Positions 983 through 5,023 of a stretch of 5,023 nucleotides of DNA are shown here, in pieces. Each line of letters starts with the position of its first letter. Position 1 is the first letter of the stretch. The notes beneath the pieces were generated by a model that worked only from the letters and a program-made list of their open reading frames with translations, did no database searches and was not told where the DNA came from. This DNA is from Candidatus Cloacimonadota bacterium. GTDB taxonomy: Bacteria > Cloacimonadota > Cloacimonadia > JGIOTU-2 > B8-G9. A program made the position numbers and the translations under genes. The DNA lies in NCBI GenBank assembly GCA_003647765.1, contig QMNM01000142.1, positions 1 through 5,023 on the forward strand, read 5' to 3'.

Positions 983-3900
983 ATGAGTAATGATTTAACA
1001 TTTATAACAAATGAAAATGGGAATAATTTGAAAGATAGATTCAATGCTCTTATAAAAGACACTCAATTTTTTGATGTGTTGGTTGGTTATTTTTATGCCA
1101 GTGGTTTTTATGCAATTTATTCCAAATTAGAAAAAACTGAAAAAATACGAATTTTAATAGGTATTAGCACAAATAAACAAACTTATGAACTGCTTCAAAG
1201 AGTTAAATCACATAAAGAAATAAATGAAGAAGTTGGAGATAAAATTAAGTCCGAGATGGATGAGTGTCAGAATAATTATTCTGTAGAAGAAGGTGTCTAT
1301 AAATTTCTTGAATGGTTAAAAAGTGGAAAGTTGGAAATAAAGGCATATCCGGAAGAAAAAATACATTCAAAACTTTATATTATGACTTTTGAAGAAGATG
1401 ATCGTGATATAGGTAGAGTTATAACAGGATCAAGTAATTTTACACAAAGTGGCTTGGTGGATAATTTAGAATTTAATGTTGAACTTAAAAATCCATCTGA
1501 TTATAAATTTGCTAAAGAAAAATTTGAAGAATTATGGGATAAAGGAATTGATGTTAGTGAAAAATATATAGAAACAATAACAGAAGACACATGGCTTAAA
1601 GAAGATATAACTCCATACGAGTTATATCTCAAATTTCTTTATGAGTATTTTAAAGAAGAAATAAATGAAGAGGATGTTTTAGAACATAGTTATAGACCTG
1701 ATAATTTTAAAGAATTAAAATATCAAGATCATGCTGTAATTAACGCAAAAAAAATTGTAGAAGAATATGGCGGTGTATTTCTTTCTGATGTTGTTGGTTT
1801 AGGAAAAACATATATGGGAACTATGCTTTGCCAAGAACTAAAAGGAAGAACTTTAGTATTAGCCCCTCCTCATCTTATTGATGAAAACAGTGAAGGTAGT
1901 TGGGAAAATTCTTTTAAAAATTTTGGATTTCGTGCCAAAGATTATAAATGCGAATCTATTGGAGTATTAGATAAAATAATAAAAAAAGAACTACATAAAA
2001 AATTTGATATTGTTCTTATTGATGAAGCACATCGTTTTAGAACAGAAGAAACAGAAACATATGCGAAGTTAGCTCAAATTTGTCGTGGTAAAAAAGTAAT
2101 TCTTGTTACTGCTACTCCATACAATAATTCTCCGAAAGATCTACTTTCCCAGATTAAACTTTTCCAAAAAGCAAGACAGAGTACAATACCGAATCTATTA
2201 AATTTAGAAGGATTTTTTAAAAAATTAGAAGGAAATATTAAAAAGCTTGATAGAAAAAGAGATAAAGAAGAATATATTAAAAAGACAAAAGAAAATTCTA
2301 AACTTATTCGTGAAAAAGTACTCAAATATTTAATGGTTAGAAGAACAAGAAAAGAAATTCAAAAATATTATGGAGATGATTTAAAAAAACAAAAAATGAG
2401 CTTTCCTGACATTGCGGAACCAAAACCTATTCTTTACGAATTTAATGAAAAAGAAGATGAAGTCTTTTTTAAAACTATAGAGATAGTAGCAAATGATTTT
2501 AAATATTCTCGTTATACGCCTATGCTATATCACAAGGGAGAATTAGGTTCTGATAAAACAAGGCAGGAAAATATGCGTAAGTTTATGAAAATGCTTTTGA
2601 TTAAACGATTGGAAAGTAGTTTCTTTGCTTTTACCCAGTCAATAGATCGATTTATAAAATCTTATGGGAAATTTATAAATGAATATAATACAGGCAGTGT
2701 GTATGTGAGTAAAAAACACATAGGAAAAATATTTGATTATTTAGATAACGGTAATTTAAATGCCGTAGATCAGCTAATCTCTGATGGGAAAGCAGAACAA
2801 TTTTCCAGTGATGAATTTCGTGAAAATTTCATAGATGACTTGAATAAAGATTTTGAGACTCTAAAGAAAATAAAAGAACTATGGAAGGATATTGATAGAG
2901 ATCCAAAGATTATTGCTTTTAAAGAAAAATTAGCAAAAGAAACTCCAATCAAAAATGGAAAATCAATTATTTTTACAGAATCAGCAGAAACAGCAAATTA
3001 TCTTGTGAAAAATTTACAAGATGTTTTCCCAAATCAAATTATCTATTTTTCCGGTGGAAGTTCACGAGCGGAACGAGAAATCGTAATGGATAATTTTGAC
3101 ACCAACACAAAAAACATTAAAAATGATTTTAAACTACTTATTACAACCGATGTATTGGCAGAAGGAGCAAACTTGCATCAAGCAAATGTTGTTATAAATT
3201 ATGATATCCCATGGAATCCAACTCGTATAATGCAAAGAGTTGGTCGTATAAATCGTGTTGATACAAAACATGACAAAATTTATACATATACCTTTTTCCC
3301 TACCGAGCAATCAAATGAAGAAATAAAACTTAAAGAATCAGCAGAAGCTAAAATTCAAGCATTTATCACCTTACTTGGAACTGATGCAAAATTATTAACA
3401 GAAGGAGAAGTTCCAGAAGATCAGGGCTTGTTTAATCGTATATTATCAAAAGAAATGATTGAGGGAGAAGAAGGCGAAGAGGAAAGTGAATTAAAATATC
3501 TACAAGAAATTAGAAAGATAAGAGATGAAGATCCAAATTTATTTGAAAAGATTAAAAAACTACCCAAAAAGGCTAGAACTGCACGAAATATTCAAGATAA
3601 TCAATCAAAACTACTCACTTATTTTAGAAAAGGTAAATTACAAAAGTTTTTTATAGTTGAAACGAGTGCAATCTCTGTTTCTAAAGAAATTGATTTTATA
3701 GAAGCAGCAAAACGGTTGATTGCAAAAACAAATGAAAAACCTAGCAAACTGGATAAAACATTTTATGAATTGCTTAATAAAAATTTAAAAATGCTAACAC
3801 AGGTAGATAAAAATGAAGAAGATGAATTTTCTGCAAAACGAGGAAGTAGAGATAATTCCGCTAGACTTTCTAAGATTTTGAATGCAAAGAATATAAAAAA

Positions 3901-4168
3901 GTATCAAGGGTTTACAGATAATGATGAATTTTATATTCAATCCGTAATCAATGAATTAAATGCAGGCACTATTCCTAAAAAAGTATCTCAAAGAATATAT
4001 AAAAAGGTTCAGGACACTCCTGAAATAATTTCAAATCCTTTAAAACTTTTAGCATTGCTAAAAACAACTCTTCCAAATGATTTTCTTCAACCAACTCAAA
4101 ATGAAATAGACAAGGGAATCTCTGGTAAAAAAGAAATAATACTTTCTGAATACTTTAAGGTTAGATAA
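983..4168 (+). CDS. PLD-family nuclease fused to SNF2-like SF2 helicase
   Basis: A 1061-residue probable defence or restriction enzyme. Residues about 10-200 form a phospholipase-D-type nuclease domain with one HKD motif: H128-S-K130, nearby acidic residues, then GSSN at 149-152. One motif per chain implies an active site built by a dimer, as in BfiI. An SF2 translocase follows: Q248 in a Q-motif position, Walker A VVGLGKT (270-276, K275), DEAH (347-350) in VLIDEAHRF, and TATPYNN (376-382). The second RecA-like lobe carries SIIFTES (661-667), TTDVLAEGANL (721-731) and QRVGRINR (751-758). Every expected motif is present, so it looks active. Residues 800-1061 form a C-terminal domain with an acidic patch (824-837) and no catalytic motif I recognise. 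It probably moves on duplex DNA and cuts by the PLD domain. The methylase-like gene two bases downstream suggests one operon. It resembles DISARM components (PLD DrmC, SNF2 DrmD) in parts, but here they are fused and the other DISARM genes are not in view. Confidence 0.88.
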   Translation: MSNDLTFITNENGNNLKDRFNALIKDTQFFDVLVGYFYASGFYAIYSKLEKTEKIRILIGISTNKQTYELLQRVKSHKEINEEVGDKIKSEMDECQNNYSVEEGVYKFLEWLKSGKLEIKAYPEEKIHSKLYIMTFEEDDRDIGRVITGSSNFTQSGLVDNLEFNVELKNPSDYKFAKEKFEELWDKGIDVSEKYIETITEDTWLKEDITPYELYLKFLYEYFKEEINEEDVLEHSYRPDNFKELKYQDHAVINAKKIVEEYGGVFLSDVVGLGKTYMGTMLCQELKGRTLVLAPPHLIDENSEGSWENSFKNFGFRAKDYKCESIGVLDKIIKKELHKKFDIVLIDEAHRFRTEETETYAKLAQICRGKKVILVTATPYNNSPKDLLSQIKLFQKARQSTIPNLLNLEGFFKKLEGNIKKLDRKRDKEEYIKKTKENSKLIREKVLKYLMVRRTRKEIQKYYGDDLKKQKMSFPDIAEPKPILYEFNEKEDEVFFKTIEIVANDFKYSRYTPMLYHKGELGSDKTRQENMRKFMKMLLIKRLESSFFAFTQSIDRFIKSYGKFINEYNTGSVYVSKKHIGKIFDYLDNGNLNAVDQLISDGKAEQFSSDEFRENFIDDLNKDFETLKKIKELWKDIDRDPKIIAFKEKLAKETPIKNGKSIIFTESAETANYLVKNLQDVFPNQIIYFSGGSSRAEREIVMDNFDTNTKNIKNDFKLLITTDVLAEGANLHQANVVINYDIPWNPTRIMQRVGRINRVDTKHDKIYTYTFFPTEQSNEEIKLKESAEAKIQAFITLLGTDAKLLTEGEVPEDQGLFNRILSKEMIEGEEGEEESELKYLQEIRKIRDEDPNLFEKIKKLPKKARTARNIQDNQSKLLTYFRKGKLQKFFIVETSAISVSKEIDFIEAAKRLIAKTNEKPSKLDKTFYELLNKNLKMLTQVDKNEEDEFSAKRGSRDNSARLSKILNAKNIKKYQGFTDNDEFYIQSVINELNAGTIPKKVSQRIYKKVQDTPEIISNPLKLLALLKTTLPNDFLQPTQNEIDKGISGKKEIILSEYFKVR
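4157..4160 (+). promoter_or_regulatory. Weak ribosome-binding site for the methylase-like gene
   Basis: AAGG lies ten bases before the ATG at 4171, inside the end of the nuclease-helicase gene. With a two-base gap between stop and start, translation is probably coupled to the gene before it. Confidence 0.35.
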
Positions 4169-4170
4169 TT

Positions 4171-4908
4171 ATGAATAAACAAGAAGCCAAAAATCTTATA
4201 CAAAAAACATTTAGCAGTAATTTTGATGCAAATAATTACCAAAGTTTTATTGCGAATCTTTTTAAAAAATATACTGCTATTGATCAAATAATATCGGGGC
4301 AATATATAAAAGAGGCTTTTAAGCAATTTATAGTAAAATATAAAAGAGTTGGAAAATTTGAAGATGGTGAAAATAACGTAATAGATATTTTAGAGGTTTA
4401 TCTTAAAAAAACATCAACACTAGAGCAAGCAAGGACAGCTCAAAGAAATTTTGTAGCAGAATATCTTAAATCAAGAAATAAAGAAGCCGCACTCGTTGCT
4501 TTTATTTCTCCTGATAGCAAAGAATGGCGACTATCCCTTGTAAAATTAGAACATTCTTTAGTCGTGGTTAATGATAAGTTAAAAACAAAAGAAGAAATTA
4601 CGCCTGCCAAAAGATGGTCTTTTTTAGTTGGCGAAAGTGAGGGCAGCCATACTGCTCAGAGTAGATTTATTGATTTACTCATAACTGATGAAGATCCAAA
4701 TCTTAAAGAACTGGAACAGGCTTTTGATATAGAAACAGTAACAAAAGAATTTTTTGATAAATATACAGAACTATTTTTTCAATTAAAAGAACATTTAGAT
4801 GATTTATTAAAAAAAGATGAAATAATAAAAAAAGACTTTGAAGAAAAAGAAATTTCTACGGTTGATTTTGCTAAAAAAACTTTAGGACAAATTGTATTTC
4901 TGGTTTAA
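4171..4908 (+). CDS. N-terminal fragment of Eco57I/PglX-like DNA methyltransferase
   Basis: The 245 residues resemble the N-terminal region of large (around 1000 residues or more) Eco57I-type adenine-specific methyltransferases found in type IIG-like restriction and BREX-like systems. Recognised segments are ARTAQRNFVAEYLK (87-100), AALVAFISPDSKEWRLSLVK (106-125), TPAKRWSFLVGE (144-155), HTAQSRF (160-166), VTKEFFDKY (190-198) and VDFAKKTLGQIVFL (231-244). In full-length members the last segment continues with YFLQKKGW and then the SAM-binding and NPPY catalytic motifs. Here TAA TAG stops follow one residue after IVFL, so no methyltransferase domain is encoded. The fragment cannot methylate DNA on its own. 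It could still be a specificity or accessory subunit of the upstream nuclease-helicase, or simply a broken gene. No clear PD-(D/E)xK nuclease site is visible. Family assignment is from memory of related proteins. Confidence 0.75.
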   Translation: MNKQEAKNLIQKTFSSNFDANNYQSFIANLFKKYTAIDQIISGQYIKEAFKQFIVKYKRVGKFEDGENNVIDILEVYLKKTSTLEQARTAQRNFVAEYLKSRNKEAALVAFISPDSKEWRLSLVKLEHSLVVVNDKLKTKEEITPAKRWSFLVGESEGSHTAQSRFIDLLITDEDPNLKELEQAFDIETVTKEFFDKYTELFFQLKEHLDDLLKKDEIIKKDFEEKEISTVDFAKKTLGQIVFLV

Positions 4909-5023
4909 TAGTCAAAAAGTGTTGGTAAAATAACCAGTTTCATTGTAATATTAGATTAAATCTAATTAATTTTGTAAATCATTCTACAATTATGACTATT
5001 TTATCAAAAAAAACTTTGTCCAA
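4909..5023. other. AT-rich end region with inverted repeats, no identified gene
   Basis: This stretch carries no recognisable continuation of the methyltransferase. It contains AATAGTCA (4907-4914) paired with TGACTATT (4993-5000), CTGGTT (4900-4905) paired with AACCAG (4932-4937), and the palindrome at 4950-4966. A frame beginning with ATG at 4992 reads M-T-I-L-S-K-K-T-L-S to the window edge. It has no Shine-Dalgarno sequence and is too short to call a gene. The region could be an insertion junction, the decayed remains of the methyltransferase, or an ordinary spacer before the next gene. Confidence 0.5.
4950..4966. repeat. 17-base near-perfect palindrome after the methylase fragment
   Basis: ATTAGATT and AATCTAAT are exact complements around a single central A (4958). 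As DNA it could be a dimer-binding operator for a gene to the right. As RNA it would form a small AU hairpin with no T-run, so it is a poor terminator. Confidence 0.45.

Follow-up and report, generated by a model that had tools for sequence, protein, structure and literature searches.

Is an open reading frame encoding an HKD nuclease domain and an SNF2 motor in one chain, followed two bases later by the beginning of an adenine methylase, part of a restriction system, and if so, of which kind? The window analysed here is one entire contig of 5023 bp (C168 of bin G000). The bin is fragmented (1.97 Mb in 360 contigs) and 88.8% complete. The window has a GC content of 28.5%, as against 30-36% for those contigs of the bin that were sampled; in tetranucleotide composition it falls inside the range of the bin. 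Both ORFs were found where the initial annotation had placed them, with the same 2-bp spacing (Table 1). Judged by sequence comparison, the HKD-SNF2 protein and the Eco57I-type methylase form a real, widespread and well-conserved restriction-type pair, known in parts.

Table 1. Features of the window and inverted repeats in three related loci
Feature	Coordinates	Strand	Support and remarks
Shortened DinD/Bro-N-like gene, 112 aa	261..599	+	PADLOC PDC-S13, NCBIfam DinD
ORF1, predicted HKD(PLD)-SNF2 helicase-like nuclease/translocase	983..4168	+	1061 aa, intact; Pfam, PADLOC, AlphaFold, dN/dS
PLD/HKD nuclease domain of ORF1	1064..1555	+	Residues 28-191; Pfam PLDc_2, RE_NgoFVII; SauUSI 7clg profile match
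SF2/SNF2 motor of ORF1	1709..3259	+	Residues 243-759; Pfam, invariant motifs, ISWI/INO80 structure matches
Motor motif, Walker A	1790-1810	+
Motor motif, DEAH	2021-2032	+
Motor motif VI, QRVGRINR	3233-3256	+
C-terminal ~260 residues of ORF1 (800-1061)	3380..4165	+	AlphaFold: low-confidence linker, then mixed strand/helix region; no assigned family
ORF2, N-terminal piece (245 aa) of truncated Eco57I/type IIG-like adenine methylase	4171..4908	+	PADLOC; L004 alignment
Contig tail, last ~120 bp	4903..5023	.	Unalignable to methylases of relatives
Inverted repeats, L114	11652-11955 and 13047-13350
Inverted repeats, L108	11722-11822 and 13392-13492
Inverted repeats, L081	11340-11386 and 14031-14077

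The HKD-SNF2 protein

The combination of an HKD nuclease domain with a complete SNF2 motor, proposed from the sequence of the window, is borne out by family profiles, invariant residues and structure matches. Two PLD families of Pfam score above their cut-offs at the N-terminus, PLDc_2 (residues 28-185, E 2.9e-11) and RE_NgoFVII (residues 45-191, E 1.8e-8). They are followed by ResIII/SNF2-rel (243-463) and Helicase_C (655-759, E 1.4e-21). The architecture is already modelled in PADLOC as C3a139, 'HKD+Snf2', a near full-length match (residues 10-987 against positions 6-943 of 948, 1.4e-48).

The HKD pattern HxK ... GSSN ... E and the SF2 motifs are invariant across homologues. H128, K130, N152 and E163, the predicted catalytic set, do not vary in 22 aligned homologues down to 28% identity, nor in an alignment of 23 sequences. 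The same 22 homologues retain the motor residues G272/G274/K275, D347-E348-H350 and Q751-R752-G754-R755-R758. Since both sets are invariant, the identification of domains and motifs is far beyond chance.

The PLD fold of residues 1-200 was checked separately. Nothing was found by phmmer with the single domain, but a profile of the same domain matched the SauUSI structure 7clg (E 6e-13) and, weakly, BfiI 2c1l (E 0.05). The AlphaFold model of ORF1 has a mean pLDDT of 81. Its residues ~225-800 resemble the SNF2 remodellers ISWI and INO80 (Z 22-24, maximum 23.9), and the top Foldseek matches of the model include RapA and SauUSI (rank 6). ORF1 is under purifying selection, with a dN/dS of 0.086 against the closest relative, L004 (GenBank JAGGWE010000107.1), whose ORF1 is 94% identical.

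The truncated methylase

ORF2 matches the PADLOC family REase_MTase_IIG only at positions 1-250 of 1148 (1.2e-74). Thus the expected Eco57I-type N-terminal region is present two bases downstream of ORF1, but the large methylase itself is not in the window, which holds only its first ~244 residues. In L004 and in more distant relatives the methylase reads on past the point where ORF2 stops. The L004 gene continues for 742 aa to the contig end and contains the NPPY motif, and in L007 the methylase is complete (1059 aa) and contains both an Eco57I and a TaqI_C domain. The window and L004 can be aligned to position ~4903 and diverge thereafter. By this alignment, ORF2 is the start, cut off after residue ~244, of a methylase that is no shorter than 742 aa. 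The SAM-binding and NPPY motifs and the specificity domain, present in the methylases of relatives, are absent from ORF2. The GC content of positions 4909-5023 is 21%, and a search with the last 120 bp yielded no more than a marginal match, AT-rich and located within other genes.

The N-terminal piece is itself under purifying selection (dN/dS 0.10 against L004). With such values for both ORF1 and the piece, a break, if there is one, must be recent; otherwise the stop is artefactual. Both readings of the truncation are compatible with the main reading of the locus given below. That the stop is an assembly artefact at a short contig end, the genome having an intact system, has a little under an even chance. 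The contig is exactly the window, divergence begins only 120 bp before its end, selection has kept the N-terminal piece, and the methylases of relatives read through. On the other hand, a search of the bin did not recover the remaining part of the methylase gene, though the bin is only 88.8% complete. Should the stop be an end effect of the assembly, then the system may be intact. If the break is real, this copy would have no modification or recognition through ORF2 and is probably inactive.

Foldseek gave no reliable match for the N-terminal domain of the methylase. The best VIA Z-score is 5.5, to unrelated folds that include two restriction-type proteins. From the order of strands and helices one could guess, and only guess, at a degenerate REase-like domain. 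With no clear fold match, the domain may conceivably be a second nuclease.

In another locus, L069 (4973-8469), the methylase is found in two ORFs of 642 and 455 aa, possibly another broken copy.

Conserved pairing and possible horizontal spread

Homologous loci were collected in the window's own phylum, in scattered genomes outside it, and on plasmids and viral contigs. The census was based on 45 of these, in which the HKD-SNF2 gene is 3'-complete and followed by at least 3 kb. An Eco57I-type methylase gene lies nearby in 42 loci: it is the next gene in 29, lies within four genes downstream in 39, and occurs only upstream in three. It was not seen in the available stretch at L082, L107 and L118. 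Loci with less downstream room that lack a methylase are mostly contig ends. Genomes of the phylum have about five Eco57I genes each, and the chance of adjacency, estimated from gene counts and not by simulation, is ~1%. Given these numbers, the linkage is not due to chance. Tabulation of the next gene, suggested by the initial annotation, therefore shows homologues that are frequently paired with full-length Eco57I-type methylases and are not solitary.

Pairwise distances in one protein track those in the other (Mantel r 0.74 versus a permutation maximum of 0.26, 34 loci). This fits joint inheritance, be it by co-transfer or by shared vertical descent, between which the test does not discriminate. 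Annotated plasmids of Parabacteroides, Prevotella and Thermus carry the pair. The closest relatives of ORF1 (94, 87 and 68% identity) come from genomes labelled Sulfurimonas, uncultured bacterium and Patescibacteria, whereas the best relative inside the phylum is 55% identical. Such a distribution would be explained by horizontal transfer, or else by short contigs having been misbinned.

Accessory genes and possible specificity switching

No recurrent third core gene was observed in the neighbourhood census. Often, one additional gene of regulator type lies between or beside the pair. It is Bro-N/DinD-like in eight loci and an AlbA/Schlafen gene with HATPase and winged helix in seven. An HTH-IrrE protein is found at this place in L049 and a SatD-like protein in L059.

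In the window, a DinD/Bro-N-like gene lies upstream of ORF1 and is the only copy in the bin. It matches PADLOC PDC-S13 (1.9e-34) and NCBIfam DinD (1.2e-34), the 288-residue DinD model being covered in two stretches as if the gene were internally deleted. In eight homologous loci, a longer member of the PDC-S13 family directly follows the HKD-SNF2 gene, and the gene in the window is therefore possibly a displaced or decayed accessory of the pair.

Directly 3' of this gene is an ORF of 70 aa (601-813) with no family match. Positions 14-102 contain an imperfect inverted repeat of 26 nt (85%) around GGATCCAGGAG and CTCCTGGATCC. This stretch is single-copy in the bin and is possibly a small repeat element.

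In L007, a gene for an ApeA-type HEPN protein (9761-11140) lies directly 3' of the pair, which points to a defence island.

Three loci, L114, L108 and L081 (one Prevotella plasmid and two viral contigs), have a piece on the opposite strand 3' of the methylase gene. It is similar to the C-terminal region of a methylase in L114 and L108 and is annotated as an Eco57I methylase in L081. Inverted repeats join the methylase gene to the piece; they measure 304, 101 and 47 nt, respectively, with 88-100% identity. This arrangement suggests that inversion may switch specificity at these loci.

Candidate mechanism and alternative explanations

With a probability of roughly 0.7, we take the locus to belong to a widespread restriction-modification system of two genes that depends on ATP and works in the manner of SauUSI, CglI or the type ISP enzymes. 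In complete members, the Eco57I-type methylase would recognise a DNA site via its own TaqI_C-like specificity domain and protect host DNA by methylating adenine. On unmodified DNA, it would form a complex with the HKD-SNF2 protein and recruit or activate it. The latter would translocate on DNA by ATP hydrolysis and cleave with the HKD nuclease, whose active form would be dimeric, as it is in SauUSI. The assignment of the HKD-SNF2 protein as the putative cleaving motor is based on analogy with SauUSI, CglI and the type ISP enzymes. A stronger version can be offered only tentatively, at less than even odds: that the pair is a distinct, widespread and unnamed class of two-protein ATP-dependent restriction systems, with a swappable regulator gene in between and, in part of the lineages, a switch of specificity through inversion of a silent TRD cassette. 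PADLOC has separate families for the two proteins. No paper naming the pair was found in the open-licence literature, which is weak evidence of absence.

One alternative is that ORF1 is a stand-alone modification-dependent (type IV) nuclease like SauUSI, its closest solved PLD relative, with the methylase as a bystander. The methylase is indeed broken in the copy of the window. However, a bystander would not be expected to be linked in 42 of 45 loci with correlated protein distances, and this explanation is improbable.

The initial annotation had seen in the locus functions carried by separate DISARM proteins (PLD and SNF2), here fused and combined with a large methylase. In a DISARM derivative, DrmC (PLD) would be joined to DrmD (SNF2), with DrmMI as the partner. 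DrmD models give the motor good scores (PADLOC 4.8e-34, NCBIfam 3e-40), and the methylases of relatives match DrmMI weakly. However, the NCBIfam DrmD score is 138 bits against a cut-off of 610, and the full-length match of ORF1 goes to the separate HKD+Snf2 family. No match to MZB/DUF1998 (DrmA/DrmB) was found in the bin (88.8% complete) or within the homologous loci; DUF1998 and an HKD-SNF2 homologue occur together on one contig only (G001:C1), ~960 kb apart. With the third core gene lacking as well, the DISARM framing is not supported, and such a derivative is very improbable.

A BREX-Related type 2 system, centred on DUF499, would share with the pair the helicase with an N-terminal HKD domain and the N6-methylase partner (PMC12839542), but can hardly be credited here. 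DUF499 has no match in the bin (88.8% complete), and none of its ten matches in the phylum shares a contig with a full-length HKD-SNF2 homologue. DUF3780, reported in 98% of BREX-Related type 2 loci (PMC12839542), has no recurrent counterpart beside the homologues among the neighbour families tallied in the census.

The interest of the restriction-modification reading lies in the family more than in the window, whose methylase is cut off. If it is confirmed, a common pair annotated as 'helicase-related protein' and 'N-6 DNA methylase' becomes a defined restriction system.

Comparison with known systems

Several systems resemble the pair in part. DISARM class 1 has the same PLD, SNF2 and adenine methylase functions, but in separate genes and together with DrmA/DrmB, both absent here. 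BREX-Related type 2 combines an HKD-Swi2/Snf2 effector with an N6-methylase (PMC12839542), but is built on the DUF499 ATPase and DUF3780, the former missing here and the latter not seen among neighbour families. PbeA and CxC-ABC ATPase systems contain an HKD-SF2 helicase fusion like ORF1, and the PLD domain of the window matches PbeA models. However, their core is an ABC ATPase with a DndE homologue (PMC10853773), and no such neighbour family recurs beside the pair.

CglI and NgoAVII consist of a PLD nuclease, an SF2 ATPase and a methylase and are NTP-dependent (PMC4267653, PMC5737866). Unlike the pair, they have nuclease and motor in separate subunits, a B3 recognition domain on the R subunit, and three genes. 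SauUSI of Staphylococcus aureus, the best PDB match of the PLD domain of ORF1, carries an N-terminal PLD and an SF2 motor in one chain, as ORF1 does; its PLD domains dimerise and its motor translocates (PMC7913695). However, its recognition domain is of the SRA type and its substrate is modified DNA (PMC7913695), whereas here the conserved partner is a methylase with a TaqI_C-like domain. The type ISP enzymes LlaGI and LlaBIII share with the pair the nuclease, translocase, gamma-methylase and TRD modules (PMC3874165), but unite them in a single polypeptide with an Mrr-like nuclease, whereas here there are two proteins and an HKD nuclease. If confirmed, the pair would bridge two groups: enzymes with PLD and SF2 in one chain, SauUSI for example, and modification enzymes that are type I or type ISP-like.
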